A stretch of DNA of 64,000 bases from NCBI GenBank assembly GCA_951799445.1, contig OX637287.1, positions 33,622,224 through 33,686,223 on the forward strand. The letters run 5' to 3'. Origin of the DNA: Pseudisothecium myosuroides. Taxonomy: Eukaryota; Streptophyta; Bryopsida; Hypnales; Lembophyllaceae. The first letter of the stretch is position 1. Every line of letters starts with the position of its first letter. The notes under the pieces were generated by a model that worked only from the letters and a program-made list of their open reading frames with translations, was not told where the DNA came from and made no database searches. Below, one piece after another: positions 6,295 through 37,808 of the stretch. The translations under genes were made by a program, and so were the position numbers.

Positions 6295-6296
6295 TA

Positions 6297-11200: not shown

Positions 11201-11529
11201 AAGTAGGAGAGCTAGAAAAGTGCCAAATCTCAAGAAAATAGATATTTTGAGGTTTTAATTAGATAAAGTAGGAAAAAATTAAATAAATAAAAGGATTTCC
11301 TATTTCTTAGAAATTAGTGTCTGATTTCTAAAGGCCTACAAGTATGAATTTTGAACAATGAATGTTTTGAAATGCAAGTAGAAAGAGTCTTACTTTGTGG
11401 ACTCCTACACAATATATAATTAATTACATTTAGAAATCCTTTGAACAATAGCTAAAAAACTACTACAAGACCATTTCCTCCAAAAAAAAATCCAAAATTG
11501 GCAAGCGTGACAATAATCGAGGGCTATTT
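8250..11529 (+). repeat. Left arm of a 3.28 kb inverted repeat
   Basis: Positions x here pair with 25213-x in 13684-16962. The relation holds without indels from about 8450 to 11529, with only rare substitutions (for example TTTAGTGCT against TTTGGTGCT near 9110). One-base indels and more mismatches occur only in the outer 200 bp. Four short reading frames recur as exact mirror copies, so they reflect the duplication and are not evidence for genes. Within the arm, a block of about 223 bp starting near 10714 is repeated in diverged form near 10937. Confidence 0.9.
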
Positions 11530-13683: not shown

Positions 13684-14187
13684 AAATAGCCCTCGATTAT
13701 TGTCACGCTTGCCAATTTTGGATTTTTTTTTGGAGGAAATGGTCTTGTAGTAGTTTTTTAGCTATTGTTCAAAGGATTTCTAAATGTAATTAATTATATA
13801 TTGTGTAGGAGTCCACAAAGTAAGACTCTTTCTACTTGCATTTCAAAACATTCATTGTTCAAAATTCATACTTGTAGGCCTTTAGAAATCAGACACTAAT
13901 TTCTAAGAAATAGGAAATCCTTTTATTTATTTAATTTTTTCCTACTTTATCTAATTAAAACCTCAAAATATCTATTTTCTTGAGATTTGGCACTTTTCTA
14001 GCTCTCCTACTTAGAGAATTTTTTTATGGTTTTTCTTTTGTGGTTACCTTCATCTAATAGGCGTATACCGGTACATTGGCCATATTTTTAAAAAAAAATG
14101 ATTTTTCTAATTTTAAAGTATTCCAAAAAAAAAGGCATGACATTTGTAAAACGCAACAAAATTAGCAATTTTTTTGTGCAATCACCC
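13505..14187. mobile_element. GGGTGATTGC-type MITE, 683 bp
   Basis: Termini GGGTGATTGCGC and GCAATCACCC are inverted, and TTGCGTT-like subterminal words recur. The longer element at 37809-38890 shares these ends and the following ACACCTATACT. The left arm of the large inverted repeat contains only the inverse of 13684-14187 (at 11026-11529), so that copy is truncated. Target duplication is unclear. Confidence 0.55.
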
Positions 14188-16962: not shown

Positions 16963-17240
16963 GTGGCTGCTAGATTGTGTGGCTTCTAGATTGTTTGGCT
17001 CCTATGGTCTTAGTGTATATCTTCTTTTCTTTTCCTTTAGTAAAGATAGAAAAACACACTAGCTTTTTGAAAATCTAGTTTTTATTTTAATAGATCGTCG
17101 GAAGCAAAAGTTATGCCCTCAAAAGCCCAAGTTTGAATTTGGCAGGAGGGATAAAACAAACTCACAAGAACTTAAAATGAAGAATTTTGAAAATTTGTTT
17201 TATATAGATTGTTTTTTTTATCTACATGGAAAGCTTTGAT

Positions 17241-17461: not shown

Positions 17462-17570
17462 GATTCATTCTATTTGGATTTGTTATATGAAAGTTATGGA
17501 CAATCTTGTTGTTTGGGCAATTAGGACATGTTCTTGAAAAGATAACATAGGATTTATTTTTGAACGCAAT

Positions 17571-17791
17571 CACTACAAGAGAAAGGGGTGTTTAAGTGAA
17601 TTTTTAAGTATAGTCCTAGACACATGATTTTAAGTAATGACCTTTAAAGAGATTTTCAGCAACATTTTACTTAAAACACATGTGTTTTAAGTAAAATGTT
17701 GCTGAAAATCTCTTTAAAGGTCATTACTTAAAATCATGTGTCTAGGACTATGCTTAAAAATTCACTTAAAACACTCCTTTCTCTTGTAGTG
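17571..17791. mobile_element. CACTA-type MITE, 221 bp (copy 2)
   Basis: Same family and length as the copy 110 bp upstream, with ends CACTACAAGAGAAAGGGG and CTTGTAGTG and the 3-bp duplication AAT on both sides. Its two halves form a long hairpin around 17681. Confidence 0.9.
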
Positions 17792-18233
17792 AATTTTTAC
17801 AATTTTTCAAGAACTTTTGAAAATTTAAGAATTTCTTCATAGAACAATCTCATTTTTGAGATTAATGTGTTTCAACTCTATCTTAAAGCTATGAATGGTT
17901 TAGTTTTCCTTTCAAAATTGAACCTACTTCTACTTAATTTTTTAAAAAAAGGTTCAAAGCTAAAGATATGTAGTTGAGTAAGGTGCAAAAAAACTTGTCT
18001 CCTTCACTTTAAAGTTTAAATGCAAATATATTGCAATCTACATTGTCAAAGTTTCTAAAATTTCTTCCACACATTCTTACACTAGTCTAATACCAAATCC
18101 TATAGTTAGATAGGCAAATTTTTTGTTTTTTGTTTTTTGCTCTTTGTTATTGATATGGCAATTTTGAGTGGTTTGTGATGGAAAAAGGCCTTCGATGTTC
18201 TGGAATTCAATGCCTTGGGTCTTTTTGAATTAA

Positions 18234-19168
18234 CCCCTAAAGGCCCAAGGCCTTTTTTCTGCCAAAAAACACTGAAAACTGCCATTTCTATAGCAAAGTA
18301 TAAAAAAAATTTCAAAATGTTTTTTTTGAACATCTAACCATAGGATCTTATGCATAACTAGTATGAGAATGTATGGAAAAAAATTCAGAATTTTTGACCG
18401 CACAAATTGCAAGATATCTGCGTTTAAAGTGAAAAAAACAAGTTTTTCAGCACATTGCGGGGCTAGATTTTTTGGCTTTAAATATTTTTAACTTAAAATT
18501 TTTGCACTACAGCGTTTTGAGCTTTTAATCCTTATAGTGGAGAATTGAGTTGAGAGTCTAGGAAAAAAAAAAATTCAAAAAAACTTAATTATCATTTAAA
18601 AAAAAAATTGTTAAGTAGAAGTAGGTCCAAGATAGAAGGAAAATCTAAAATATTTATATATTTTAGATGGAATTAAAATGCACTAATCCCAATGGTGAGA
18701 TTGTTCTAGCAAGTAAATTACAATATGCAAAAAAAAAGAAATTTGAAAAATTTGAAAAATTGCATTCAGAAATGAATCCTACAAGTTATTTTTTTCAAGA
18801 AGATGCTCTAACTGCCCGAAAAACAAGAATATCCATAACTTTCTCATAACAAATCCAAATGAAATGAATCAAAGCTTTCCAGATAGGCAAAAATATAATC
18901 TATTAGAAAAAAAATATTTAAAAAAAAAATTCAAATTTTTGTCCATTTTTTTTCTGCTGCTCGGGTTGCCCGCCGTCCCCTGTTTTGAGCTTATTTGGTC
19001 ATAACTATTGTTCCCGGGCACCGATTGTAGAAAAAATTATATTCCCACAAAGCTTATCAGTTTTTCTATCTTCAAAAAAAGTTTCAAAAAATCAGGACAA
19101 AATTTCAGCCCATAGGTACCTGCCCAAAATCTCATTTGTCCCCCGAGGGGACAATGGGCCTTTAGGGG
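18234..19168. mobile_element. TTAA-flanked element, 935 bp
   Basis: Perfect termini CCCCTAAAGGCCCA and its inverse sit between TTAA at 18230-18233 and 19169-19172. The subterminal blocks (CACTGAAAACTGCCATTTCT at the left; a GTCCCC-GAGGGGAC hairpin at the right) match the copy at 53338-54251 in opposite orientation. No transposase is encoded. Confidence 0.8.
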
Positions 19169-19172
19169 TTAA

Positions 19173-20155
19173 AGGCCTATGGGCCCACATGCAATGGATC
19201 ATCCTAATTTACTTCAAGTCTTTTGCTTAGTGCAAGTGCTTCTGGGATATGCTATATGTTTGTGAAATATGTATTGTAGGTCAGAAGTTTTCCTATAAGA
19301 ATGTGGGTAATGTGCATTTTGAAGCATCAAGGCTACTTCAAAAGGATCTTCACCCCTAATAACCTACGTCAATATTTTGCAATTATAAATTTTTGTTTAG
19401 AAAAGTAATTAAATCAATAAATTGCAACAATAATTAAGAATGCTCGTGGGCGTCACTCCGTGTAGGATTTTGTACATCACTTACAGCTAGGGGGTTTATT
19501 TTTGGAGGAATTTTTGACGGGGATGCTAGTATGTGAGCCTGTGAGCCTCCATTTTTTTTCATTTAGGGTTTGTAAATTTGTTGGAGACCTATGACCGTGG
19601 AATTAGATGTAAGGATGTATAGACCAAATGAACAACAAATGAATATGCCGCTATGTGATTTTGTATCAAAAAAATGAATCTATATATTTCCAAAGTCAAA
19701 TTTACATTTGGCTTCTATGGCTATGCTTTAAAATAAAAACAAAAATCTCTTGGACATTGAATATTTAAAATAACCATAGTAGTCATATATTGTAAATTAA
19801 ATAAATGTATTAACCTCGACTGACCTAGACGACTATTTTTATAGTTGATGCCCCTCTTTTTGAACTGTCTTGTTTCAAATTTTATGTTTTTGAAAATCAA
19901 AATCATTTTTAACAAATAGACTACATAATAAATTCAATGGTAGTAGTTTCATGGAATGCCATATTAAACTCCGCTTTGTAGAATTTTATAAAGTTGAATG
20001 GTGGAGTGTAATTCAAGGCTCATGATTTATTGTTCAATTTGAGCATAGGGTGAAGTTTTAGGCCAAAGAATGGAACTGTTGCCACATCATATATAAATAG
20101 ATTCAATTTGAAAAACAAGACAATAAAAATCAAATATCAAATCATGAAAAGAAAC
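19173..20155. other. AT-rich intergenic DNA
   Basis: No gene, repeat or RNA was recognised. It forms the 3' flank of the minus-strand ParB-methyltransferase gene. Confidence 0.4.
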
Positions 20156-20495
20156 TCAAATATCGTCTGACTCAGATGCACTGAGTTCAAAATAAGAACA
20201 TACTCTAGGATCATAAGATCTATGAGGTGATAGAGAAACTGAAGATGAATCAGATTAAGCATTAGCATAAGCTAATGCTAAATCTTCAGCATAAACAGGG
20301 AGGCCACGAGGACTGAGAGAGGGACTTCTAAGAAATCCAGGGTGTCGATAAAAAGGCAAGTTTTGCCTTAGTGATGGATTCATCCAATTGCAAACAACAA
20401 ACCATATATCAGAGTATGTAGTAACAAATTAAAATACAAAGTATAAAATTTGTAAATGAAGTTGTTAAAAATGAAAAACATAAAATAAAACTTAC

Positions 20496-21544
20496 TCACA
20501 TAAGTCAAGGAATGCAACGTCTTCAACTGGAGAGTCATCATCAATCGCCATACCATCGCTTGTAGTAGTAGAATCAAGAATCTTGGAGACGGCTATAGGT
20601 GTTTGCAAAGGCTTCAATATCTCATCAAAGAGTTTGGTATCACTCTCTAATGCTAAGATATGGCGATTAGATGAATGAGCCGCTCTAATGGAAGAACTTG
20701 GATGAAACACAATATTAAAATTATGAAAACATCAAAATTGCAGTGTAGAAAAAAAATCAAACAAAAAAATAGAATAAAAAATAATTCAATATTGTAGATT
20801 ACAATACCTGTAGAGGCAATCATATCTGCCACAATGCCACCTACAGGGCTCAAGCAATGAACAAAAATCTTCATTAAAACCTCTAATTTCTCCTTAGCAC
20901 CCCTCCATGGCTTGCCATCTTCCTTTCTACATGATTGATTATCCATAGTAATAGAATTGAAGAGAACGTCGTCTGTGGCTAAATCAACCTTGGGAATTGA
21001 AGGATCAGTAGTAATCACAAGCTCCTGAGGTTGCCTTGTAATGGAAGAGGCCAATGATCGAACCAACAATAAAGCCTTAAACTTTAGAGTCTGAAAATCA
21101 AAATCAAATTAAAATTAGAAAATGTACTTACAATCAAAGGAATTGCAATAAGAATTGAATCAATGCCAAAAATGAAAGCTTGAAATTGCTACTTACATTT
21201 TTAGATGGATTCATAGGATTTGCCAAATGTAAGCAATTCACAATAGTCCACTCATCCTTGACCTTTAGCTTGTAGTTCTTGAAGAATCCTGCCACTTCTC
21301 TCTTCACTGTAGGACTATCACGATAAAATAGAAGGAATGCTCCATCATCATGAAGATAGGTAAGAGAGAATGCCATCATTACGTGGAGAAAACTTGGAAT
21401 GCTGACATTCCAATGCGGAATTTGAGATGGCGGATTTGAGACCTCTGGAACCCAAAGACCATCTGGATATTCTGCAATGATGAGGTCCACGGCAGGTTTC
21501 TTTTGCACTTTGCCATCAAAAAAGAAATCTCTACCTTCACCAAC
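20496..21544 (-). other. Beta-class methyltransferase-fold exons
   Basis: The exon at 21544-21197 carries motif IV-like DLIIAEYPDG (21487-21458), in the place of DPPY, and a LHDDGAFLLFY strand like motif VI/VII. The exon at 21090-20808 carries KPWRGAKEKLEVL, like the motif X helix, and ends in motif I VADMIASTG (20832-20808). The next exon continues SSIRAAHSSNRHILALESD, the helix, strand and acidic residue expected to bind the SAM ribose. The DPPY tetrad itself is not conserved, so amino-methyltransferase chemistry cannot be assumed. Confidence 0.6.
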
Positions 21545-23628
21545 CTACAAAGATAAATTTCAAGAATATTAATTCATGATTGAACAAGTCAAAGTCACAG
21601 AATATTATGAATTAGAAGAGATGGCTTTCAAATAACATGTAAGATTTTATAACAATATAAAACATGAAATAAAAAAACTATAAAAAGAATGAACTCACCT
21701 TTGATAGAAAAGCCACAATGTCGTCATATGGTGCAGCAAATGTACCAGTCTTCTTCTTCTCTTCAATAATTCTAACAAAAGAATCATTCAAGATCAAATC
21801 TAAAGATGTATGATTTGTAGACAAAGGTGCCAAAGAAGTCATCATACTCCTAAGCTTAGGAGGTAGCTCAATGACAGAAGAGGAGGTTGGCACCAAAGTC
21901 ACGAGAGTAGAAGTTGTCTTCTGCCGCTTTGAAGCAGGGAGTATTGCCTCAACATTTGAGGAAGAAGGTCCTGTAACAACGAGGTTTTTGAGACTGTCTT
22001 GAACCGGCACATCTTCATCGGAATCATCAAGCTCCACCACTGACTTCTTTGGCTTGAGCTTGGTTTTCTTGTTCTTCTTGGCTACATCCTTGTCCACCGT
22101 CTTAGGAATAGCTACAACTGTGCCTTTGAGAGCTGGTTCAATGGAATCTCGAAGGGCAATGTCAAAAGTAGGAGGTCTTTTGAGGGGACAATCCAAATAC
22201 CATCCACACTTTTCCCAATGCATGGGATCCCAAGATTTCATAATCCCCTTTGCAAACATGTACTCTTCACTTTCTTTGTCCAAATAATTTGCAAAGAAAG
22301 TGGGAGATTTGGAAATGGCTATAGCAGGGAAAAGGACATACTTGAAGTACCTATAAAGCACCCTCTACATGGCTGGTTTGAAGTTGAGTTGTTTTCAATC
22401 TTATGATTTTTGTGGATCTCCTTATCCACAGCAAACTCACAAAAGAATGCAGTATCCCACAACAGTATACGCATTGTCTCCACATAATCAAATATAGTGG
22501 GCAAAGGATCCATACCATCAGGAAGATAGTTAATAGACACGTCTAGATCAGCCACTGTAGCATTGAAAAGCTTTTCTGTCTCAATAACCAACTGCCACAC
22601 AAAAAATGTAAGTTAGAAGAATGTTATGATCAACTGAAAATGTTCAAAGGAAATAATACTAAAACAGGAAAAAGAAAGAGAAGTACTCACTTGAGCCTAC
22701 CATGTAGCTTTATGAAGCCACTCAGGGAAGTCAATATCACTGAATTTTGGTTTAGGGAATTTGAGAGCCTCACGAAGAGAAGAAGACTTGTTCCACCTCT
22801 CTAGCCATTTGATCTTCATAGAAGTGTCCATTGCTGAAGTTGCTAGCATCCAAAGTTTTTCTTGAGTCATTTCTGGACTCTTGTCATGAATTTCATAGTG
22901 ACACTGCACCTGCTCCAAGAAGGCCATCGTGTGGTTAGGATCTGCAATGGGGAGTTGTTTCTTCAGCTCTAAATGAGAAGCTACCTTGATCCTCTCAACA
23001 GCTTTGGAGACCCATTCATGAACAACATTTGGAGTCCAATCAGCTGGATTGGGATACTTTTCGTAGAATTTTCTTTGAGCAGCAGCAGCAGCGTCCCCCA
23101 ACTCTTGCTGCATAGAATAAATGATGTATAGAAATAAGCATAATATACATGATAATACATGTTATGCATAATACTAGAGCAAGATATAATTAATTCAAAT
23201 TAACAAGAAGAACAAAAAAAAGACCAAAGAATTGAAAAAATATGAAATAGAAAATAAGACTTTAGAAATGAACCTGGTATAAGACTCCATTTAGAGCCTC
23301 AAGAGTGAGAGTGAACCAAATTCGTTGTTTTGACTTTTGTTTGGCTTCAGCTGCCTCTAGATCCTCTTTGGAAACAAGTTTTTCAAAGTATGAGAGTGGT
23401 TGTGCAACAATACGTTGAATGCAATAGAGCTTGTGAACAAGATTTATGGAAACATGGGATTTCTAGTTTCTCCTGGCACCACAAAATTGATTGTGTTAAA
23501 ACATGTGAAGCAAACACCTAACTCTCCAAAAGATAGAATAGTAACTATTACAATGGTCCATATCAAAGAAGCTTTAGAAACTAAGAAGTGAAATGAAAAG
23601 AAAACTGATAAATAAGAAAAAGGATTAC

Positions 23629-24229
23629 CAATTGACTTCATGCAATGTTGCCAGCATAGTTGCAATGTCCCCCTTGACGTCCAAAATAATGCTTTCAACA
23701 GCATAATGCCACATAGAGTCGTCCACATGATCACGATTGATAAGAGGCAACCATGCTTGCAAACGATGGTTGCCATCCCAAACCATGAACATCTTGCTAG
23801 AGAAGACTTTTAGATCTTCATCATTCTGCAATTCTTTCTCAAAAGCAGCATTTGCTTGTACCTAGTTGGCACTCCATGATTTAACAATGTCATCCGTGAC
23901 ATCTACTGTCTTCCCCTCATTGTTCTCCAAAGCCACATAAAAAACTCCGTTTCCTTCCATGTAACCACAAGTGACAAAATGTGCAGCTAGATTCATCACG
24001 TCATTCTTCAAGAAAGGCCTCACAACCGGCAAAGAGATCATACGACATAAAGGAATATTAATTTTAGACTTTGCCCTGGGTTGGTATCTCAACCGCTCGA
24101 GACGCGAAGAAGTGTTCACAGTCTCCTTCTTCAAAAAGCCATGCAATTGCAACTCCAATTGATCTTTAGAAAGAAGTTGGACAGCAGCATCTACTGCTAG
24201 TACTTGTGGATCTATATCTGTCAACATCT
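23629..24229 (-). other. ParB/Srx-like domain exon
   Basis: This third exon encodes the segment from PLCRMISLPVVRPF to ILDVKGDIATMLATLHEVN. It contains VWDGNHRLQAW (DGNHR at 23777-23763), which matches the ParB-type signature of a hydrophobic strand, D-G-x-H-R and a following helix. The stretch before it has the ParB pattern of an arginine, a helix and a strand (MNLAAHFVTCGYMEG). A TAG interrupts the frame at 23862-23864, with clear coding on both sides. Confidence 0.6.
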
Positions 24230-24303
24230 CTGAAATAATGTTTAAATCTTGATTAGAAGAAGTTATACTTTGTATACATTTATTATAAACTATGTAATAA
24301 AAC

Positions 24304-25000
24304 ATACCAGCCGGCAATGGCTGGGGTCTAGCAAGGCCCCAAAATTTCAGCATCTAAGTTCTCTATAGAAATCATTGCCCAGAAATTGATGCCTCCAAAA
24401 GCGTAGCCGTTAACGGCTGGGGTCTACGGAGGTTAGAAGAATTTCAGCATTTGACAGAATTTTAGCAAAGAATTTTCTAAATTGGAACCCCAAAAAGCGT
24501 AGCCGTTAACGGCTGGGGTCTGGAAAGGTAGAAAAAAATTTAGCGTTTGACGAAATTTCAGCAAAGAGTTTTGTAATTCGGAACCCAAAAAGCGTAGCCG
24601 TTAACGGCTGGGGTCTGAGAAGGCATAAAAAATTTCAGCATTTGATGAAATTTCAGCAAACAGTTTTCCAAATTGGAACCCCAAAAAGCGTAGCCGTTAA
24701 CGGCTGGGGTCTGGGAAGGCATAAAAAATTTCAGCGTTTCACAAAATTTCAGCAAACAGTTTTTCAAATCGGAACCCTAAAAAGCATAGCCGTTAACAGC
24801 TGGGGTCTGGGAAGGCATAAAAAATTTCAACATTTGACGAAATTTCAACAAACAGTTTTTCAAATCGGAACCTCAAAAAGCGTAGCCGTTAACGGCTGGG
24901 GTCTGGGGAGGCAAAATTTTTTTTAGCATTTGACAAAATCGCACTCTCTATTGGAAGCAAAATAGGACCCAAAAAGCGCAGCCGTTAACGGCTGAGGTCT
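24304..25000. repeat. 96-bp tandem array with a central palindrome
   Basis: About eight units start at 24304 (diverged), 24401, 24497, 24592, 24688, 24784, 24880 and 24976, spaced 95-97 bp. Five of the eight units contain the perfect palindrome AGCCGTTAACGGCT; the units at 24304, 24784 and 24976 carry variants. The array lies within the second intron of the ParB-methyltransferase gene (25030-24230). Because 96 is a multiple of three, both strands stay open and give spurious repeat peptides. The half-site AACGG is the core bound by MYB3R-type proteins in M-phase elements; relevance here is inference. Confidence 0.9.
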
Positions 25001-26193
25001 AGGAAGGCAGGCAGGAAAAAAAAAAAGCACCTGGATTTGCCTCACTCTGCACGCTTGTTGTCCCTTCATTGGCCTTGTTCATTGTTCCTCCATGCTCATC
25101 TCGCCGCGCCAAATCCGCCGCAGCCTCCCCTTCCTCCATGGTGGTACCTCCACCTTCCTCCTCCGTAAGCGGTTGTTGCCTCCCAACCTTCAAAGACGAC
25201 GGCTAAAGATGTGACAAGGTTTACGGTAAACCGTACTCCACTCCAAAAATTGGTAGATGTACCTCAAGGGAATCTTCTGAATAACTTCTTCAATTCTCAA
25301 GATTTTGAGCCAAATTTTTTTTAATCCATAGATTCTACACGTGAGATTCACTCTAATTTTTTTTTGAATTTCCGGACATTCCTACAATTTTACAAAAATC
25401 AGCCAAAACTGCTAAAAATCAAAAGCCTGGATTTGGCCTAAAAATCAGCCAAATCTGAAGATTTCAGGCCAGATTCCAAGATGCTGAATTAGTTTTTAGG
25501 CCATAACTTCTTCAATATGTATCCGTTTTTTAAATGCTTTATACCGTTGGAATTGTGCTTTCGACGCGAACAAAATGATGTAAAGTTGCTAGATTTGCAT
25601 CCAAGAAAATTTTTCACATACATTCAAAGTCAATATCACTTGGGGTTATTATTTTCTTACCATTCTGATTATACTTCCGAACTCTCGCTCCAACTTTGAT
25701 GGTTGTTGTTGTTGTTGTTCTTCTTCTTCCTCTTCTTCGCTACTATATTGATCCAAATCACTACAACCTGAGGCAATATCTAGTTGATTTTCACATAAAA
25801 TGGATTCACCCTGCACAATATCCTCTTGAATTGCTTCACGTGAAATGGGTTCACCTTCCATGATATCCTCCCGAATTGCTTCACACAAAACAATACCTTC
25901 ATATGTTAAATTCCTTGTTGTGCCCGACAAATCAGTTGCAGTGATCCGAGGCAACCGTCTAATCATTCTAGCCCTTAACAATTGCCTTCTACTGGAATAA
26001 GGAAAGCTACTTTTCCTCCTCCTCTTCTTCCTATCCTTTACTAAAGTGTCCAACGTTAGCAATGGAGAAAGGAAGTTCTCTTGCATTTGAAATAATCAAC
26101 TACCAAGGCATTACAATATCAACATCCTCCATACTACATCACCCACTCTTTGGAACATGCCTTTCTACACATTACTTCATCTTCTTCAATAGG

Positions 26194-26201
26194 CTTTTAT
26201 A
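26194..26201 (-). promoter_or_regulatory. TATA box of the ParB-methyltransferase gene
   Basis: TATAAAAG reads on the minus strand 108 bp before the first ATG (26086-26084). Its distance supports that ATG as the start of the gene. Confidence 0.5.
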
Positions 26202-26667
26202 TTCTAAGAGACTTGCACAAATTCTCTCCACAAAGTTACAATTTCATTTTATCACAAAATTGCTGGCTTTATTTGTCTGTTACTGATATCATCATCAACC
26301 ACAAGATTCTTAAATGGTCACTAGATATATAATCATAATTGCATGCATGTCATGGGTCATCATACAGTATAATGCATGATGACACATCATCTCCTGTCAG
26401 TGCTTGTTGTAACTCTGCCAGCATGGTCTGATACAAATTGATCCGTACTTTGTACTATAATTCATTTATTATTGGTGTTGTATTAATTGATGACGTGTAA
26501 TACGCTGCCTTACCCACCTCCATTTTAGATGTTGTTCACATACCTTCTTCTATATCAAATCTTGATATGATATGCAATAACTAGCATTCAAATCATCAAT
26601 CCAATTTCAAATTTTTGTACAGGTAAAAATTCCTATTCTTCGAAACGAACCTACAAGTCTCTCCTTC

Positions 26668-26676
26668 TTTATATCC
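26668..26676 (+). promoter_or_regulatory. TATA-like element of the divergent gene
   Basis: TTTATATCC lies about 90 bp before the ATG at 26765, in a pyrimidine-rich leader. Together with the minus-strand TATA box it makes the 679-bp intergenic region a plausible bidirectional promoter. Confidence 0.4.
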
Positions 26677-26764
26677 ACACCTTTTGCACTTGCAAATATC
26701 AAAGCTTCATTCTTTTTGCTTCTTCGTGTTGTTTGTTGCTTGCAATTTTCTTTAATGCTTCACT

Positions 26765-27595
26765 ATGGCTAGTATTGTCGCTAGAGGCCATGAGGTCCCA
26801 TTTGTTTTACCATTAGGTATTCAAGGTTCTGTACATATGCCCACCCATCTCCTTCATGTCCGCTTTGGATTTTTCCCTTCTTCTATCGTCATAGAGGAAG
26901 AAGTCCAAGGTGACTACAACGTTCTTAAGGAATCAATTTTGCAGGTAAGATGTAGCGATCATGAAGGATTCTACTGGCTTCTTCATGTAGGATGCTATAG
27001 AGTTTATGATCTCTTGCCAGAGCCCTTGCCGGCTTCGACTGAAATACTTCCACCCATTTTTGATGAGTTCACTGTTGAGCGCCCAGTATTACGTCCAGTG
27101 AAAGTGGAGTCTCTAGGTAGTGGATGCTCTGAGAATACAATTTTGTTCAATGTCAACAATGTTAAACGTGAGTCCCTAGAACCTGTGATAGAGTTATCCA
27201 GTGATTCTGAAGGCGAAACGCCAATTAAAGTTTGTCAACCTTCCTCTTTGAATGTTGTTTTGCCATGTATGGTGAATTCAGCCATTCCTACTGCCTTCCG
27301 TACTACCCTTAGTAGTCCTGCATCATTTGGATTTTCTCGTCTTCCTCTCCCTCTGTGGACGCAAGATTACCCACCCTTGGTAATAGAGCGAACACCGACC
27401 AGGTTCTATGCCTTTATCCACTTTTTTAATATATGGGGGTATTGTGAGCGCGGTCCACTGTGCCTTCCAAGCAATGGATCTTTTTTGCTAACGTTTCCTA
27501 AGGGTCGTGGATGGCAGCGAATAATTAGAATGCATGTAGTAACTCACAAGGTAACTGCAATGCTCAGGGGTAATGGTGAAATTCTAACTCCCTAA
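26765..27595 (+). CDS. Unrecognised 276-aa protein with SUMO-type motifs
   Basis: A single uninterrupted frame starts at ATG 26765 (context CACTATGGC) and ends at TAA. I do not recognise the family. The N-terminal third is hydrophobic and possibly globular (VPFVLPLGIQGSV, WLLHVGCYRVYDLL). The middle has two consensus SUMO-acceptor sites, VKVE (~112-115) and VKRE (~133-136), followed by VIELSSDSEGE (~141-151, 27185-27217), a textbook SUMO-interaction motif with an acidic-serine tail. The C-terminal third (LPLWTQDYPPLVIER to the end) is again globular-looking. It is divergent from the ParB-methyltransferase gene, whose product has a similar motif. Nuclear function is an inference. It lacks the nonsense codons of its neighbour, which argues that it may still be under constraint. 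Confidence 0.55.
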   Translation: MASIVARGHEVPFVLPLGIQGSVHMPTHLLHVRFGFFPSSIVIEEEVQGDYNVLKESILQVRCSDHEGFYWLLHVGCYRVYDLLPEPLPASTEILPPIFDEFTVERPVLRPVKVESLGSGCSENTILFNVNNVKRESLEPVIELSSDSEGETPIKVCQPSSLNVVLPCMVNSAIPTAFRTTLSSPASFGFSRLPLPLWTQDYPPLVIERTPTRFYAFIHFFNIWGYCERGPLCLPSNGSFLLTFPKGRGWQRIIRMHVVTHKVTAMLRGNGEILTP

Positions 27596-28980
27596 CTATC
27601 TATCCTATGTCGAGGGTAGACTGGGTAGTTGGCGTCATTTCTCACGTTCCTAACTACGTAAAAAGGGGAACCCCTATGTTCCTTCCATGAACCTCTAAGA
27701 CTATCGTGGGTTTTTAAGACTCCACCTAGAAGTTCTACTTCTAAAGACTAATTCTAAAATCCAACTCTTACTCTAATTTTCAACCTCTAAAAGAAACTCC
27801 AGGCTTTTACCCTTTTAACTCGGCTTTAAGTATTAACTACCGACTTCCATTCTATGTTTTGACTTTTGACTCTAAGTTTTTACTTTCAACTCCTAACTTC
27901 CAAGTTTTAACCTTCTAGGGTAATTCTAAGTTTCACTTTTAATTTTATGTTCTTAATTCCAAACTACTCTAAGATTTACCCTCTAAAGTTAACTCTAACT
28001 TTTCGCTTTCTACTGTAGATTTTTATTCCTAATTTAACTCTAGGTTTTTGACTTTTAACTCTAAATTTTTACTTCCAAAATTAATTCCCAATTTTAACCT
28101 CTAGGGTTGACTCTACGTTTTTACTTTGACTCTAGATTTTTTCTACTTCCAACTAACTCTAAAATTTAACTTCTACCTCTAAGTTTTAACTTCTACTTTT
28201 AGCTTTTGACTCTAACCTTTTACTCCCCAATTGACTCTAAAATTTAACCTTTGAATTTAATCTAAACTTTTGACTTTTGACTTCCCCTTCCAAATTTAAT
28301 CCTATTGTTTTAATCCTGGATTAACTCTAGATGTTACCCTCCTAAATTTAATTCCAACTTTTAACTCTAGGGTTTTGACTTCTATTTTTTACTCTATTCC
28401 TAACTCAAAAATCTACTTCCTAAGTTGATTTTCAATTCTACCGTTGACCTATATTTCTACTCTAATTTTTGACTCCCTAATCAACTTCTAAACTCTTACA
28501 TGAACCTCCCCTAAGATTTGACTTGAGAGTTGAAACCCCTAGGTTAAGTTCTAAATTAATTCTATTTTTTAACTTCCCAAAGTTAACTCTAGATTTTGAC
28601 CTTAGAAGTTTAACTTTAAAAAAATAAAAGTGTAAATTGATTCTAATTCTACCTGCTAATTAATCCCTAATTTTAATCCTAAATTCTCCTTCTAATCTAA
28701 TCCTAAATTCCGTCCATGGTTCCTTGTGGATCAAATTTAATTAAAATTCCTCCGTTCTACCCCTTACCGCTTAACTTAGCCTAACGCGGTCAGTTTACGG
28801 TCAAATCTTAATTATAAGATGTTTTCGGAAACCTCTATTCCTAATCTATCAATTTTTGAATCTAAACTTCTAATTTACACTAATCTCGGATGCTAATCAC
28901 GCTCTAAGGGCAGATTAGGACAATAAAGGCTAATTAGGGAGAAACATCAAAGATTAAATCAAAAACTTACCTCTTCACTA
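27596..28980. repeat. Degenerate pyrimidine-rich quasi-repeat tract
   Basis: The plus strand consists largely of drifting variants of AACTCTAA, TTTTAACTT and CTTCTAACTCTAGG-like words, with no fixed period. It resembles an old, heavily diverged tandem array. No gene is supported. A 112-codon frame at 28984-29322 continues the same composition and is not credible as a protein. Confidence 0.5.
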
Positions 28981-29699
28981 CCGGTGTCGGAAATGACTTC
29001 GTCCACGTCCACGTGTACATCCTCACGCTCCATGGTAGTCTTTGACTTTGTTTTGAATTTTTTCCAAGCTCACCGCTTATTGAGAAGATATTACAATTTT
29101 GATGATCTAAACTCCTTCTTTCCCTTCCTCCTTTCTTTTCTTTCTTCCTCTTTCTTCTACACTAGCACTATTCCACCTAAGCCTTTATGGGTCTTACACT
29201 ATGGCTTCAAACTACGAGAAGGGCTTAATTGTTCTTTCCTACCCTCTTACGCAACCTTGCTTTGTGTCATCCTAATCTTCTTCCCAACGGTTGCAAGGAG
29301 TTCTTCTAGATTTCCTACCTAATCTCCTAGCTAGGCACTATTCATCGTCTCTCTCCTTTTCACTCCTATAACACATCCCTCTCCCTAATTTCCTTCCATT
29401 CTGTGTAAGTGGGAGTGGTGATAGAGACCGTTTTCATGTGCAAGTACGGTGGTGCTCCGCTCTCTTCTTCCTCCTCCCTTTTGTATTTTTGTATTGGCCC
29501 TAATTCTGCTTCACCCCTGCTTAGCACTTAATTAGCCCAACATTCCTTGAGTTTGCTTTATCTTTGTTCATGTTCTGGTTTGAGAGAACCAAAACGTGAG
29601 ACAAAAAAAAGGAATCAAAATTTTGGAGGAGCCTGCCTGGCCCTTCCCGGCTGGCTGGCTGGGGGGTCGGGTTTTAAATATAAAAAAATCTTTTTTTTT

Positions 29700-29850
29700 A
29701 TTTATTGCTGATGGGATGCTGGTTGGGATGCTGGTTGGGATGCTGGTTGGGATGCTGGTTGGGATCGCTGGTTGTGATCGCTGGTTGTGATTGCTGGTTG
29801 GGATGCTGGTTGGGATTGCTGGTTGGGATTGCTGGTTGGGATGCTGGTTC
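29700..29850. repeat. 12/13-bp minisatellite
   Basis: About eleven copies of GATGCTGGTTGG, with GATTGCTGGTTGG and GATCGCTGGTTGT variants, follow one another. Confidence 0.85.
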
Positions 29851-30216
29851 TTTTTCTCTAAGGCTATTTTAGGACTGAAATTTTGCTAAGGCTATTTTAA
29901 GGCTAGGGGGAAATAAAACCTTGGGGGTACTAAACTCACTAAGACCCCGGGAACCAACTAAACTAGATAAACTTTGGGAAGACACTACACTTGATAAGTA
30001 CAAAGGAACCTACATCTCTTGGAAGCTAAACTCTGGAGGTTTCCACAAAGGTCTTGGAAACTAGACTTTGGAATCTAAGGCTATGGAGGTTCAAAGCTTC
30101 GCCGTAAAATCGGGTTTAACACCAACTTTAGGACTTGCGACACTCCATGGGTTCAAAGCTCCGCTGTCTAAGAGTATTTTAACACACACTGTAGGACTTG
30201 ACGTTGTTACTAGTTC

Positions 30217-30540
30217 AAAGCTTCGCCGTCCCGAGAGGGGGTCCACGCAACAAGGGGGAGATTAGAAGAAGATAAAAAAACAAATTTAGAAACACGTGTG
30301 ACAAAGCCAAAGCTTCGCCGTCCCGAGAGGGGGTCCACGCAACAAGGGGGAGATTAGAAGAAGATAAAAAAACAAATTTAGAAACACGTGTGACAAAGCC
30401 AAAGCTTCGCCGTCCCGAGGGGGGGTCCACGCAACAAGGGGGAGATTAGAAGAAGATAAAAAGACAAATTTAGAAACACGTGTGACAAAGCCAAAGCTTC
30501 GCCGTCCCGAGAGGGGGTCCACGCAACAAGGGAAAGATTA
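30217..30540. repeat. 92-bp tandem repeat, about 3.5 copies
   Basis: Copies start with AAAGCTTCGCCGTCCCGAG at 30217, 30309, 30401 and 30493, exactly 92 bp apart and almost identical; the last is truncated. Each full unit contains an ACACGTGT (G-box-type) word and GGGGTCCACGCAACAAGGG. Weaker relatives of the AAGCTTCGCCGT core precede it at 30095 and 30155. Confidence 0.88.
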
Positions 30541-32290
30541 GAAGGGGGTGAGGACACATAAGTAAGGGAAACACACGTTTTAGTACACGTAAAGACACAC
30601 AACTTCACAAGCTAAAGGCCCCCCAAAGCGGCATCGCCAAGGTACGGTGGAGGGTGACTTTAGGATTAGGACACGACCCAAAAAGACTCCTAAACTCACA
30701 AGTTAGCTCACAAGGGTACAACAAGAGAGAACAAGGACTCTTAACTCGTAACAAGGGTATAACAAACGCACGAGAAGTACACAAGGCAAGATAGAAGGAC
30801 CCCCAAGGACCTTCAAAGCTTGAAATCTAGCAACAATGTAGCAAAAAGTGCTCCAAAAACACCGTAGAGGTTTTTGGCTTCAAACGCCAAAATATCCAAA
30901 GCAACTTGGACCCACGGACCCAATTAAAAGTGAGGGGATGTTTTAGAGAGAGAAATGGGGCCCTTATATAGGTTTCCAAGGGCTCACCCCTCTCTCTCAA
31001 GCTCTAAGGTAACCTTATCAAAGGGGATTTTCATCCTCATCCTCAAAGATTTTCATCCTACATCCTAAATTTCTACTTCTACCATCTATGCTAGACCAAC
31101 ATCCTAACTTTTGGAGATTAGCTCCAATCGCCGAACGGATTGCGTCGTTGGATCCAGAACGCCGTGTTTAGTTTTAGATCCCTTAATCCCCGGACCGAGG
31201 CCAAAAACGCATCGTAGGCTAATTTAGTTTAAAAATCAAATCATGGTAAAATCCTAGATCTTGGGGGTCTCCTATTTTGAGAAATGTGAATAGCCTAGGG
31301 TCTCCGGTAGGTGCGAGAGAGTTGGAAAGGACTCTTGGTTGACTTCGTTTCGCCATCGTATGGTCCCGGAATGCCGGTCAACGTGGCGGGGACCCCGCCA
31401 CGTGGTTAATTCCCGAGGAATCTCGCCGGTTCGGGTACTTGCCGCTATCGGAATGTCGTGAAACTTCACGGAGCGTATTATTAACATAAAACAAGCTAGT
31501 CTAATTTTTAATGAGATTTTATTGTAACCTGGGTAATTTCCATGAAATTCCCGTTGGAGGTTAGGAGGGTTGACCACCCGGAAAAAGGTTCTTCTGCAAG
31601 TCGGAAGATGCCGGGATTTTTCACGTGACCTCTCAGGGAGTCGCATGAAAGACGTGCGGGTGTGTTTCCGTACCTGGCACGATTGGTCAATGGAGATTTA
31701 AACTGGACATCTCCTTGAATTAGCGACGGTGCGGGAATCTTCTGCAGGTGGAGGAATCTTGGCGAACCAATTTCGCCGTTGGACTCCTGGCATGGGATTC
31801 ACCCTAGAACACCATCCTTGCGCTGTAGATTCCTCCACAAGCCCGGTCTTGCGTGAGTGGCTCCTGCATGTTAACAATCGGGATTTTGGGAATTCGTCGA
31901 TCTAATGGGGAATTCTAAATCTAACTCTAGGACCCGACCTAGTGGCCTCGCTGTGGATCCCTCGGATCGACCTAGCCATGAATCGCCACATTCATGGTGG
32001 GATTTAGCCCTTTTGGAGCTGTGTGACTCGAATCCTCCAAATCTAACCTTTTCGTTATTTTTATACCATTTTTAGGCAAGGTTTGGGGGATTCTAAGTAA
32101 AAAACACAAATCTAGACCAAATACTATAATGGGTATGACACAACCCTATTTCGGTTCTACACTCTTTTTATGGATTTTTGTATACTTTTATCAACTTTAA
32201 ATTGCAAATTTCCAAAAAAAATAATTCTACGAGTCCCAAGTGACGAATTGGGAGCTCACACCCTCCCAATCAGCGTGATTCCCTTAGTGT
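30541..32290. other. Intergenic region with a GC-rich patch and a palindrome
   Basis: 30541-31060 is rich in AACAAGGG and ACACAAG words; CCTTATATAGG sits at about 30963. 31130-32000 is GC-balanced, with overlapping but unrecognised frames on the minus strand. At 31381-31403 ACGTGGCGGGG is followed by one A and its exact inverse, an 11-bp-arm palindrome ending in ACGT cores. This is the upstream flank of the MULE-like gene and could hold its terminal region, but no terminal repeat was found. Confidence 0.35.
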
Positions 32291-32296
32291 ATTGCA

Positions 32297-35200
32297 ATGC
32301 CTTCGCAAATTGTCTTTAGTGCCTGGATTACGGAATGAACTTGCCCAGATTGATTTTGATGCTATAGAATACCAGAACATTCAGTTTCTCCCAGCTAGAT
32401 TCGATGGTGACGTTCTCTTTGAGTTGCCACCATCTTGTGGATCTAGATGTGGAGCTAGAGGCATGGAGGGCATGGATAAACGGTATGATGGTCACACGTG
32501 GTGTCGCACCATGACGTCAAACATCCATAATGACTTAGGTTTAAAGTTCAGAAAGTCGCATTGTATTGGACATTTGATCTGTGAAAATATAAAATGTGAG
32601 TACCGCACACGAGCTTCAAAGAATAACGAAATTGAGTGGATTGGGACCACAAAACATTCCTTTAGCCTAGGTCAGATTCCTCCGCCAGACTCTACTGTGC
32701 TCTGTAAAGTTTGTAGACAATCTCCTACTTGCCTCAGTTTATGTAACTCGCGGATTTACTACGTACTTAGAACTGGAGATTTGTCGCGTGCGTGCATCCA
32801 CTTGGGTGTCCATTTGCATCCAGTTGCTGACAGCCAATGTAGAGAGTCTCTTGAAGCAATCACCGGACTAATTGCTCACGAAGTGGCTAGAACTCCAACC
32901 GCCAAAACTTCCGCTATTACCATGGCAGCAAGCAAGGAGTTCCTCGACACGTTCCTTATTCACAATGGACCTGAACCAAAAGAGATGCTCCATGGTGATG
33001 CGTTAGAGAATGTCATGGATAAGTTTTAGCTTCTTAGCTCGCCTAATATGCGCAACGTGATATCTTCTTTACGGAGCAACAACAAGGGTGCTGGCGAGAT
33101 TGATCGGATCTTTGATATGAAGGAACGTGCCAAAATGGAATACATTCATGATAGTGTATTCCCGGGACAAGGGCAAGACAAGGTCTATTTGTTCAAGATG
33201 CTCGTGGATGGACCTGGGAGTGGAGTCGATCTTGTACGACGGATGCAACCAAGTGGCGATCTAGAAAACTGCTTTATCATGTTTGATCATGTGAAGAGGG
33301 TGAAATTATGGACAACTATTGCTTGTCACGTCTATGACTCCACTTATTGCAAAATCATGACCATTGCCGTATGTGATATGCAGACTGAGGGAACCGAAGG
33401 CCAAATCATTTTTTGGCGTTGTTTGAATAAGGTCATGGTGAAAAATGGGGTGTCAGATCCAAACTTCAAGGGATTCATGTGTGATAGTGCTCAAGCAAAC
33501 TTCAATGCAGTTTGCATTGTGTATGGGTCAGAAGATCCATCCATTCCAATGGTGGACCGTGAAAGGACTTGCTTATTCCATTGGGCAACATGCATGCACA
33601 AGCATACGGAGAAGCTAATCGCCAAAGAATTCCAAAACCAACATATTCGACACTGCAGGCAGTACAAAGATGCGACATCGATATCCGAAGCAGACAAGAT
33701 GTATTTAGAAATCAGAGCTTGGTGGTACTCCTCCGGAGCTGCATCAGAACCAGCTATTCGTGAACTCGAGGATTGGCTCGCATTTTGGCACTTTCGATAT
33801 CGTCAATGGGGTGGATTTATGGAAATGGTAAGAATCTTTACTCTCATTATTTCTTCCTCTATTTCTTATCCTAAACTACAAACCGTTTTATTAATGACTT
33901 TATTTGTCATGTTGGCAGAAATTGACAATAGAGGAACTAGCAGACATCCCAACATGCAACTTGGCTAAAACAGTGCACAACAAATGGATGCAAGCTTCCG
34001 GGAAACGCGGGTCTGATTTGTTTGTGGCCACGTGTGATGACTGGGTCTGAGCCTTTATGCAGATGACTAATTATAGGGCTTATCTGTGCGGGGGCCCTTC
34101 TAGAAAAGGCCCCTCTAAAGAAGATTTGAAACTGAAGAGGGCTATGGTATCTGGAGATGGAAAGAAAATTGCAGACGCACTTAGTGAAATGCCTGGAGCG
34201 GAAGACATTTGCACTCGAATTCCGCACTTGGAGGGGGAAGAAGTATTCGGGTCCAACAAAAGGAAATTGGATCTTCCGATTGGGTCCGAAGGTGATTCTC
34301 ATCGCCCTGACAAGGTGAACTTCTCTCATCCTCGGATTCAAACTAGATCAGCCAATGCTAGAGTGCAACTTGAGACTGTAGTTGAGGAGTTTCATACAAT
34401 TATGCCTCATACTCAATCTGTAGTGGAAACGGATTGCGATACATCGGAATGGCACATAGCAAGAATTTCACACAAGTCAAGGAAACAGTGTCATGCCATT
34501 CAGAAGTATACACAGGCCAAATGCAAGCTACTAATTGTTAGGCATGGAAAACCCACTGCTGCCCCTACTTATAGAGGGCAAAAGCGAGAATATAAAGGCA
34601 CGGCAGTTCAGACCGAGGATTTTTGGTTTTGTGCAGACCAAATTGCACGATGTGTCATGGGACCTAAGCGTTCCCATGTTCTTACTCGACTCGAGATTCC
34701 CGAAGTCTGGCCTGTTCTTACTGATACCAATCTTACCCGTACTGAAATTATAGAGCTTGAAGAAGCTGGGTTCCGCTTGCAATCCAACGTGCCGATGTTG
34801 CCTCGACGTTTGTTTACCTCGTCTAAGGTATTTGAGCCTGTGTTGTGGAGTCATCCTCGACCAGCACATGCCGAAAGAATCCCTTCTATTCGGAATGGCA
34901 AGTAGGTTCGTCGGAGCAGTAAACACTACAAGAGAAAGGGGTGTTTTAAGTAGTGTCCTAGACATCACGTCTTTTAAGTAAAGTCTTTTAAGTAAGTTTT
35001 TAAGTAAAATTTTACTAAAAAGACAATCTTTTTAGTAAAATTTTACTTAAAAACTTACTTAAAAGACGTTATTTAAAAGACGTGATGTCTAGGACACTAC
35101 TTAAAACACCCCTTTCTCTTGTAGTGAAAGCACCTACCAAGAATCACCGCAATCAGTGGGAAAGTGCAAGGAATGTTACTGCAAGTATTACTGGGGTGAA

Positions 35201-35505
35201 CTTCCTTCCCTACCCTGGACTTGGTGCTGTTATTACACTACTGTCCGGCACTGAACCTAACCAGAAGGTTTACAGCATCACACTTTGTAATTTTCCATTT
35301 TGTACTTGTCCCCATTATGGAAGTATGAACGGGACCTCTATTGGAAAGCGTGGGATGTATATCAATTGCAAACACCTTTATTACATTTTTTGTTATTTTT
35401 GCAAACTGGATTATAAGACATACGTTCATCCACGCTCCTACCCTCAGCTTGGATGAAGTTAAGCAAGTGCTTGTTGCTGCCGGAATCATCAAGACATGCG
35501 AGTGA
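32297..35505 (+). pseudogene. MULE-like transposase gene with SWIM finger, degraded
   Basis: Two exons are visible: from 32297 to 33827, then GTAAGA-TTGGCAG intron 33828-33918, then 33919-35505. The N-terminal part has a zinc-ligand pattern typical of WRKY/GCM1-like fingers of MULE proteins (CIGHLICENIKCEYRTR). The middle has MULE-like acidic positions in HVYDSTYCKIM and GFMCDSAQANFN with a following C-x(n)-H (CLFHWATCMH). The C-terminus has the SWIM pattern CTC ... CKH (35307-35380). Breaks are TAG at 33027-33029, TGA at 34048-34050, TAG at 34903-34905, a 203-bp CACTA MITE at 34924, and one-base frameshifts near 32340 and 35420, after which the frame continues LSLDEVKQVLVAAGIIK to TGA at 35505. 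Removing the MITE and one target copy restores the frame downstream. No terminal inverted repeats were found, so it could be an element or a domesticated derivative, now dead. Confidence 0.72.
34924..35126. mobile_element. CACTA-type MITE inside the transposase gene, 203 bp
   Basis: Ends CACTACAAGAGAAAGGGG and CTTGTAGTG, flanked by AAA (34921-34923 and 35127-35129). It forms a near-complete hairpin and belongs to the same family as the copies at 17.2 and 17.6 kb. It interrupts the transposase reading frame just before the SWIM-encoding part. Confidence 0.9.
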
Positions 35506-37808
35506 CCAAGTTAATTGACATATATTAGTATAATATAAAGTAGATAGGCAGTATTAGTATATTATCTTCAATATCCTCAAATTCAAGTAGCTAAATATGT
35601 ATCCCTTTCTGCAATGAAAGAATATTTTATTATTTACTCAATATTCTACATCCTATAGTATTTTCATTGCATTTGTTTTCTTCTCATCCTTGCAATTGCC
35701 TCTAATTATTTGTACTCTCACTTCATCAGACTACCCTGAGAAGGCTTCTCAAAATATAATATAAATTTCAAAACATGCAATAGCACCAACTTCCCAGGCT
35801 TTTAAATTGGAAATCCACGATCATGGGTCCCGTGGTAATAGGTCATATATATTTTACTATATTTTACTAAATATAATAAAAAAAATTCAAAAATTTTCAA
35901 ACTTTTAACTTTTTAATCCAAAAAATTTAGAAATTACATCATGTTTTATATTTTTAGGCTCTAGGCTCACACAATCCACGCTCACCACTCTTAGGCTCAC
36001 GCTCACCGCTCTTAGGCTCACGCTCACACGCTCACATGCTAGCGTCGTTGGAATTTTTGATGACCATGAACAATTAAATGGTTCTTATTATTATCTAATT
36101 TTCTAATTCATGATATTTTATGACCACTAAAATTACTTAGAATTCTAAAGGAGGGGCAATGTTTAGCAATTTTTTTTTGTTGCACAAAAAAAAAGGAAAT
36201 TGAGAAAAGACAAACACAAAGATTAAAGACAAAAGCACAACACATGAACTATAAACACAACCTTCACTTAACACAATTTGAAGCATTTAATATGCATTGT
36301 TGCCTTCTTCGTCCTGTAAAGCAAACAACACATGAGAATCCTCAAATCATAAACCGAAATAAGCAAAGAAGGACCACAAAACAAAACAAAGACAAAAATG
36401 GCACACACAAACTATAAATTAGAAATTGATAGCATTTACATCCAAGAGAATGTGAACAACAAATTGAGGCACAATAACCCCATCAACATAGTAATACACC
36501 ATACAATACAAAACAGCATGCAAGGAAGTAAAAATGCGCGAGGTCAATCCCCCCCCCAGAAAGGCAAAACTAAACCAAAAATGTTCAAGCACGTATGGTG
36601 CACCAATAATAATAACATTAAAGTGTTTGAAGCATGAAATGTGTTCATAACACAATTGTAAATACCAAAAGTAAATAGTTGCCTTAATCCTACCACACAC
36701 ATGACACGGAAATCCATAGGATAAAAAATCTCCAAGCTAAGAGGCAAACTGACATGCTAAACCCTCTCACACATAGATTGTAGGGGTCACCTACATGAAT
36801 AAAAATTTGTGCCAATCTTCACCCTTCACCACAAAAACTTTGCAAGGTTGCCAATTACGACACAAAATGCCATGAAACTCCTTTAACTCTCTATTGATAA
36901 GGTTTGACCGGGGGGAGTGCGTAGATGATCTAAAGGGGTCTCAAAAGCTACCACAATTTGGAAAAAAACTCCATGTTGCAATTGAAGTTGTCCACTACAA
37001 ATGTATCACCATCAAGCATGGGATGTTGGAGAACCCGCAACAGCTCAAATTGAAATTCTAAAAGTCTAAACCAACATACTTGAAACTGAATTTGAAACTC
37101 CAAAGAATGAGTAAACCAACACATCCCAAACTTAGTCTGGAACTCAAACCCCTAAACCCTTTTGACAATATGGATAGGCTCTTAAGACCTCAGATAATTA
37201 TTCATAAATAAAATTGAAAAATATTTATTGAGCTTTTAATTTTTATACTCTTCATTTTCATTTCAAGGTTTATTCTATATGGTAAATTATAACCTTTTAT
37301 CATTTTTGTTGCAAATCTTTGCATCACAAATAACTCACAAAATCCAATTATTTTTGCCAAAAATAAAATTGAACATGATTGTCTAGATTTACTTATATAT
37401 ATAAAGTTTAGAATCATTTTATGTTTATTAATAAGATAGAAATTGCAAAGAATTTTATATTCTTGACAATGTAGAATCTCTTTTCAAAAATAAAATTTGA
37501 GGATAAATCTTTATTCAATTCCATTTAAAGAAAGAGAAACAAATGAAAGATTCAAATTTTTATTCAAGAAAATCTTATATATGTTGATATTGCCACTTAC
37601 ACTTTATAAGCGTTCCATTACTAGAGTAGAGTTTAAACCAAATTAGGCATACACCAAGTATATACAAAATCAACATTGTATACTATTGTTCTATGTATGG
37701 AAGCATGGAGTTCTTTTATTTGTTCTTATAGTTAAAATAATTCCATGCACGAGGTGCCCATACTCTAAAGTTAAAAAATGTCTTATTATAATATATATTA
37801 TAGTTTTC
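35506..37808. other. AT-rich intergenic DNA
   Basis: No gene was recognised. 35955-36046 holds short repeats of GCTCACGCTCAC and TTAGGCTCACGC. 36170-36660 has small A-rich frames without coding character. Confidence 0.4.

Follow-up and report, generated by a model that had tools for sequence, protein, structure and literature searches.

We analyze here a stretch of 64,000 nt of eukaryotic DNA from the moss Pseudisothecium myosuroides (contig OX637287.1, positions 33,622,224-33,686,223), which as a whole we call the window, and in particular a gene on its minus strand, from 26086 to about 20501, that joins a ParB-fold domain to a methyltransferase-like half. This ParB-methyltransferase gene is the second gene of a multi-copy DNA transposon, and not a resident gene of the host. 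Its first intron carries a tandem array of palindromes that the encoded protein may recognize.

The genome searched is a 388 Mb assembly of 222 contigs, in which the window lies at C1:33622224-33686223. LEAFY is a family known from streptophytes, and its DNA-binding domain is of the moss type when D replaces H at one position. The genome encodes it (SAM_LFY profile, best E-value 1.7e-27), and the DNA-binding domain next to that match reads KMRDYVHCYALHCLD. The window was compared with six related copies (C1a, C1b, C2, C4, C5 and C6), each fetched with 30 kb around it, and relatives of the exons were sought among proteins predicted from public contigs. Rfam and tRNA scans of the window were empty, and sequence searches of solved structures gave nothing useful.

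A two-gene transposon

The limits of the element come from comparing its copies. Nested insertions apart, the match of C1a, C1b and C4 to the window begins at 19518-19534 and runs to 35985-36006, with about 85-98% identity per block outside the array, and the homology ends at direct repeats: GGAATTTTTGA in the window, CGCAATGTACG in C1a and TGTAGGGAAGT in C4. These are 11, 11 and 11 bp long, which fits the 8-11 bp target-site duplication of MULE transposons; the direct repeat of C1b is ATAACCC, 7 bp (8/9 over nine bases, by eye). Of the six copies fetched these three are full-length, and a direct repeat of its own flanks each of them; C2 and C5 show interruptions or rearrangements, and C6 is cut short. 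The transposon ends in short imperfect inverted repeats around GCTAG.ATGTGAGC, with GATGCTAGTATGTGAGC / GACGCTAGCATGTGAGC ends. An earlier reading of this DNA from its letters alone (the sequence-only reading) had set the locus at 20255..26086; the exons do lie at about 20501-26086, but the relevant unit is larger, a transposon of 19518-36049.

The other gene of the element is a transposase. It is uninterrupted over a 609-residue frame in C1b; in the window a 4.9-kb nested repeat interrupts it at 27354, and it resumes at 32261. By eye we read in it D...D..CxxH and, at the end, a SWIM-like CTCPHY...CKHLYYIF. This protein is named by no Pfam model, and neither the window-family pieces nor the L030 frames gave a MULE match at E <= 1. 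From the direct repeats of 9-11 bp and the motifs the transposase looks Mutator-like, and we use that word for the element without filing it as a MULE, because there is no MULE profile match and the SWIM-like motifs are read by eye only.

Is the pairing of these two genes an accident of one insertion? The methyltransferase exons have at least 173 matches in the genome (150 of 587 candidates scored), so the relatives that the sequence-only reading had suggested looking for are many, with open exon frames. Five deep families have usable flanks: the window's own, L029/L030, L032, L033/L037 and L028/L031 (L038 is without flanks to judge by, and L039 has no match to the ParB-methyltransferase gene). 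A homologous transposase lies divergently upstream in four of the five. In L029/L030, whose ParB exon has 42% identity with that of the window, it starts about 4.1 kb upstream. In L032, whose methyltransferase exon is 42% identical, the start lies about 0.5 kb from a weak match to exon 1 (E 2.7e-5); the gene of this family was compared by its exon 1 match and its methyltransferase exon. In L033/L037, with a ParB exon 57% identical and a methyltransferase exon 35% identical, it starts about 10.4 kb upstream, with other repeats between. L028/L031 (28% identical) shows no transposase in the 10 kb upstream, the side that was covered. The transposases of these families are 28-54% identical. Homologous divergent transposases in families so distant argue that the pairing is old, and not an accidental capture. 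The exons of L028 and L029 still align with the window's at the protein level, and by this comparison, which covers exons, long-range conservation shows at the protein level only. As a separate observation, L033 has a tandem duplicate frame beginning TMAESSNPVARRPSVTA (1669-2457 and 2904-4190) between the transposase and the ParB-methyltransferase gene.

The introns and the charged N-terminus had been taken earlier as signs of long residence in a eukaryotic nucleus, and a single bacterial or viral writer gene, acquired horizontally and resident there, would agree with the fusion being known in prokaryotes (the accessible part of PMC5512222 has a ParB-methylase fusion in Bacillus cereus, Bce_0392). 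Such a single resident gene does not survive the flanking direct repeats, the multi-copy structure and the divergent transposase conserved in distant families, and at this locus the insertion boundaries contradict it; we regard it as highly improbable. Pattern-limited scans of IMG/VR and GTDB contigs found no relatives, and on these scans we also rejected a giant-virus, phage or bacterial resident; a host gene acquired once is ruled out by the insertion boundaries together with the copy number.

Ten GT-AG exons had been read in the gene. We find eight supported, with exon 5 in two pieces and the C-terminal exon proposed at 20255-20418 not among them; most have GT-AG sites, but exon 3 lacks a clean acceptor and a frameshift breaks exon 5. 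Read again on the minus strand, the open exon-like segments do give the order described before: a basic/acidic N-terminus (where a stretch like a nuclear localization signal had been read), the VWDGNHRLQA domain, DLIIAEYPDG, VADMIASTG and then, in the next exon, SSIRAAHSSNRHILALESD, with the helix and acid. Joined, the segments make 1102 aa.

The window copy is decayed and defective, as had been seen before, with in-frame stops in exons 2 and 4 and a frameshift in exon 5. The codon of the exon 2 TAG is W in 108 of 112 relatives; C1a has the TAG as well, C1b lacks it, and the other four copies (C2, C4, C5 and C6) give no alignment at that point. The terminal stop of exon 4 is missing from C1a, C1b, C4 and C5, and C2 has a stop at the same codon, while the one-base frameshift is in none of the five other covering copies. 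Purifying selection among the close copies was considered, given pairwise Nei-Gojobori ratios of 0.45-0.8, and dropped: all codon positions differ about equally often and transitions are in excess, and between the two closest copies introns are no less similar than exons, so that the close copies decay neutrally. Table 1 gives the coordinates.

Table 1. Features of the transposon and of its ParB-methyltransferase gene, in window coordinates
Feature	Position	Strand	Basis
Left flanking direct repeat (target-site duplication) GGAATTTTTGA	19507..19517		Identical 11 bases at 36050-36060
Whole transposon with two nested insertions; about 11.4 kb without them	19518..36049		Comparison with C1a, C1b, C4
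Left terminal inverted repeat region GGGGATGCTAGTATGTGAGCCTGTGAGC, imperfect	19518..19560	+	
Exon 8, SAM-binding helix and acid (ALESD), acidic tail	20501..20695	-	Profile, alignment
Exon 7, methyltransferase, WRGAKEK (motif X-like) and VADMIASTG (motif I)	20812..21089	-	Relatives, profile
Exon 6, methyltransferase first half, DLIIAEYPDG at motif IV place	21198..21547	-	Relatives
Exon 5, GWYLDCP middle region and charged linker; frameshift near 22391	21700..22591	-	Matched in L028, L029
Exon 4, in-frame stop at end, absent from 4/5 other covering copies	22697..23107	-	Copy comparison
Exon 3, acceptor uncertain	23277..23444	-	Relative in L037
Exon 2, ParB/Srx-fold domain with DGNHR; in-frame TAG 23862-23864	23629..24226	-	Relatives, fold
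Tandem array, about 96-bp unit, intron 1, palindrome AGCCGTTAACGGCT 8 times (<=3 mismatches), 6 exact	24397..25009		
Exon 1, basic then acidic N-terminus	25662..26086	-	Window translation
Transposase gene 5' part, divergent from ParB-methyltransferase gene	26759..27353	+	
Nested repeat within transposase gene	27354..32260		Missing at that place in C1b, C4
Transposase 3' part, DDE-like and SWIM-like motifs by eye, stop-broken	32261..35490	+	End estimated from C1b
Small nested insertion, about 200 bp, inverted ends, in transposase 3' part	34924..35120		
Right terminal inverted repeat region (reverse complement CAACGACGCTAGCATGTGAGCGTGTGAGC), imperfect	36010..36049	-	
Right flanking direct repeat GGAATTTTTGA	36050..36060		Identical to left copy

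The large nested repeat has 12-bp and 92-bp tandem arrays of its own, and related copies in C2 and, several times, in C5. The small one belongs to a family of palindromic insertions of about 200 bp with inverted ends, seen in the window at 34921-35128 (the copy in the transposase 3' part) and at 17568-17793.

The two domains and their relatives

Searched at exon size, the ParB exon has 120 relatives (best E 3.5e-110) and the methyltransferase exons have 57 (best E 1e-73), and the key motifs of both recur among them, so the exon segments are not a product of chance, nor an illusion raised by a pseudogene. A full-length protein search returned nothing at E <= 0.001, whereas exon-sized queries matched, probably because the relatives in the searched set are exon-sized frames.

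The domain in exon 2 has the ParB/Srx fold. DGNHR is kept in 88 of the 104 relatives that span it, and fits the G-x-H-R type that we take to be the ParB/Srx active-site motif. Pfam ParB-family profiles match 0 of 56 members at E <= 1. A profile and structure check of this domain thus comes out for the fold and not for the Pfam profile and, because no Pfam ParB-family profile matches, the domain is placed in the ParB/sulfiredoxin superfamily by fold only.

The methyltransferase half matches PHROG 3008 at E 2.7e-6 (8.9e-5 with a shorter piece), and a distant family does so at E 0.0013. Matches to Pfam PF01555 range from E 0.05 to 0.0059, the last from the distant family, all under the Pfam cut-off. 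In alignment A1, which holds the window piece and 56 relatives, mostly fragments (one of the 57 relatives, P0057, was left out), PHROG 3008 is matched by 5 of the 57 members at E <= 1, and PF01555 by 5. The motif order is that of the beta class, with motif IV ahead of motif I and a motif X-like stretch directly before motif I. Together with the ParB/Srx fold, these DNA methyltransferase profiles bear out the fusion first proposed from the letters. The sole match of a tblastn search against phages is EmiRose gp39 (E 0.4), which carries DPPY...DPFAGTG and is called a beta-class methyltransferase by its motifs; in the alignment, WRG.KEK...GGIVADMIASTG-SSIRAAHSSNRHILALESD stands opposite VKPVTL...GGLVLDPFAGTG-STLEAAYSLGMRSIGIEQD.

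The difficulty is at motif IV. DLIIAEYPDG stands at the right position, before motif I, but it is not of the DPPY type in any relative that can be read there. The motif IV pattern gave a reading for 34 of the 57 relatives and none for 23: DPPY occurs in 0/34 and EYPD in 24/34, the others being near variants, and that place reads DVPE in L028 and DIPE in L029. Since the catalytic [DNS]-P-P-[YFW] is kept in none of those 34, we do not file the protein as an active amino-methyltransferase. The half may then be a dead methyltransferase fold that serves as a DNA-binding or dimerization module, making the protein an architectural or partition-like factor (for tethering or copy control) and not a writer. 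The absence of DPPY, with EYPD the commonest form, points that way, but 14 of the 22 relatives that can be read at motif I retain it in the form D[LM][TS][AT][SG]TG, the motif X-like stretch WRG.KEK recurs, and the acid after motif I is kept wherever exon 8 is seen. This retention of motif I, motif X-like stretch and acid suggests that binding of S-adenosylmethionine (SAM) is retained. We hold the dead fold to be a real possibility, if somewhat short of even odds, and the "epigenetic writer" role proposed from the letters to be a guess.

A structure model of the methyltransferase part (query P0006, 44 of 57 relatives aligned, without exon 8 and with a translated intron) has a pLDDT of 53.7. 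Its Foldseek rows agree with DNA methyltransferases; its VIA-align rows mix class I methyltransferases, Alba-like and other folds, and for that reason we give the model little weight. Divergence is uneven in L037 (1293-2992) and at C1:31629044: identity to the window is 53-60% in the ParB and middle exons but only 35% in the methyltransferase exon. Perhaps the catalytic half has been swapped, or evolves fast.

No report of a ParB-methyltransferase fusion in land plants was found in the open-access literature, in line with the earlier remark that no such plant protein was characterized; in eukaryotes, on the other hand, the fusion has already been reported from algal transposons. The accessible text of PMC12477816 describes Sola1-1_Ec32 of Ectocarpus, a 21.5 kb transposon in which a ParB-like and methyltransferase protein of 1104 residues is encoded opposite the transposase; for green and red algae it points to its references 50 (by its DOI a 2011 review of eukaryotic DNA methylation systems) and 51 (the Bostrychia genome paper). 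The moss gene shares this layout: both domains in about 1100 aa, on the strand opposite to the transposase, inside a large DNA transposon. It differs in host lineage, in a transposase that looks Mutator-like (by direct-repeat length and eye-read motifs) instead of Sola, and in the tandem palindrome arrays, and the likeness to the algal proteins rests on their described architecture. As far as that text goes, such cargo is already known from brown, green and red algae, and the palindrome array is what we add.

Bacterial fusions of the Bce_0392 type, as the source presents them, likewise join a ParB-fold domain to a DNA methyltransferase; the moss gene, in contrast, belongs to a eukaryote and has introns, and its product has a long middle region and a motif IV that is not canonical. 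Marchantia, another bryophyte, has in MpDN4MT1 a prokaryotic-type DNA methyltransferase that does not belong to the 5mC families, a 4mC writer according to the portions seen of PMC8566409 and PMC8885841. The latter describes it as without additional N- or C-terminal domains and recruited in spermiogenesis, and nothing in that portion makes it transposon cargo, unlike the moss gene.

Palindrome arrays and neighboring repeats

The units of the intron 1 array, about 96 bp long, contain AGCCGTTAACGGCT, a perfect palindrome. Allowing up to 3 mismatches (exact occurrences in parentheses), AGCCGTTAACGGCT occurs in the arrays 8 (6) times in the window, 10 (4) in C1a, 18 (14) in C1b, 6 (1) in C2, 8 (0) in C5 and 5 (1) in C4; C6 has none.

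Two of the deep families also have arrays. In L029/L030 a 79-bp array lies upstream of the ParB exon (from 9238 of L029 into L030), where a basic/acidic frame at L030 854-1309 is, by eye, exon 1 of that gene; in L032 a 117-bp array lies downstream of the exon 1 match. The units of L029 and L032 are otherwise unrelated, yet both contain the 16-mer GACCTCGTTGACGAGG without a mismatch (a score attained by 0 of 500 shuffles), and with the 16-mer removed they are no more alike than shuffles (119 of 500). The palindromes are AGCCGTTAACGGCT in one family and CCTCGTTGACGAGG in the two others, with the common core CGTTRACG. We observe 46 sites of this core against 2.6 expected in 313 kb (249 kb of fetched genome DNA plus the window), which is not a random genome sample, having been fetched for holding these genes. 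They are distributed as 6 in the window, 6 in C1a, 15 in C1b, 3 each in C2, C5 and C4, and 5 each in L029/L030 and L032; 44 of the 46 are inside arrays, and the other two (L032 9224 and 9339) come just before the array called at 9541. Because the six close copies are related, core sites in them are not independent events, and the independent evidence is that of three families, in each of which palindromic sites cluster beside the ParB gene, 5' of the ParB exon and in a matching position.

L031 has a large tandem array of its own (4156-6793, 149-bp unit, 17.7 copies), which lies upstream of the L028 gene and lacks the CGTTRACG core. Elsewhere in the window, two inverted arms of 3.28 kb (8247-11529 and 13684-16964) are 99.76% identical. 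With about 2.15 kb between them, these very long inverted ends mark a recent insertion or duplication. A repeat of about 950 bp (18230-19173 and 53333-54255) has 18-bp inverted ends TTAACCCCTAAAGGCCCA, exact in the first copy; it is also found twice in C1b and in C6, and looks like a non-autonomous element. Two overlapping long frames at 46875-48687 are a possible AP2/ERF-type gene; the first of them matches the AP2 domain weakly (E 5.5e-4, which falls short of the curated cut-off).

A candidate self-recognition factor

ParB proteins act on palindromic sites as dimers. By analogy, we propose that the product of the ParB-methyltransferase gene is a transposon-encoded self-recognition factor that would bind the palindromes and mark or coat its own element, a reading to which we give a probability of about 0.55. 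The arrays with the CGTTRACG core would then be a candidate, as yet unproven, parS-like self-recognition site. The protein would dimerize on the intron 1 palindromes through its ParB-like and middle regions, as ParB does on parS, and so bring its methyltransferase domain, or a catalytically altered descendant of one, to the element's own DNA. From the array it would perhaps spread, marking or coating the element, and this could keep the element expressible despite host silencing, or regulate transposition. The likeness to ParABS lies in the fold of the ParB N-terminal domain and in palindromic sites clustered near the gene; the site sequence, the tandem spacing and the fusion to a methyltransferase are different, and no ParA was seen, none having been sought.

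The alternative is that the gene is transposon cargo with no self-recognition, the array being an ordinary minisatellite or a promoter or enhancer, and the target of the protein being host chromatin or other DNA. Tandem repeats are frequent in this genome, and several results weigh against self-recognition and toward this simpler account. No CGTTRACG core is present in L028, L031, L033, L037 or L038. The inverted repeat of a single unit is unusual only to a mild degree, since 43, 114 and 95 of 2000 shuffles give one as strong. The window unit does not align with those of L029 and L032 at the palindrome (44 and 28 of 500 shuffles reach the scores), which makes the common core a weaker argument than the 16-mer of L029 and L032. 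Conservation within units is higher at the palindrome (0.936 vs. 0.788, 55 units), a comparison biased by units having been located by their palindrome. To these we add the sampling of the 313 kb, and that catalysis by the methyltransferase half is doubtful from its motifs. What cargo alone leaves unexplained is a 16-mer common to unrelated units, arrays at matching places 5' of the ParB exon in three families, and the excess of core sites, and we consider it possible but rather unlikely.

A stronger form of the self-recognition proposal is a complete self-marking module, a ParB-fold methyltransferase with its own parS-like array, which would load there, spread, modify or coat the element, tell self from host DNA and counter silencing, with site and protein having diverged together. 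This we offer tentatively, as a possibility that we would not favor as it stands.

Transposons with epigenetic machinery of their own are rare, and their logic is untried. The idea of self-modification has already been raised for the algal proteins in the accessible text of PMC12477816, and within the open-access literature searched the array is new evidence for it. The many copies of this family, its conserved arrangement of two genes and its candidate recognition site make self-binding or self-modification by a transposon directly testable in a plant. If true, it would be a eukaryotic reuse of a mechanism like that of ParB and parS, and might supply plants with non-5mC marks or with new DNA-binding regulators.

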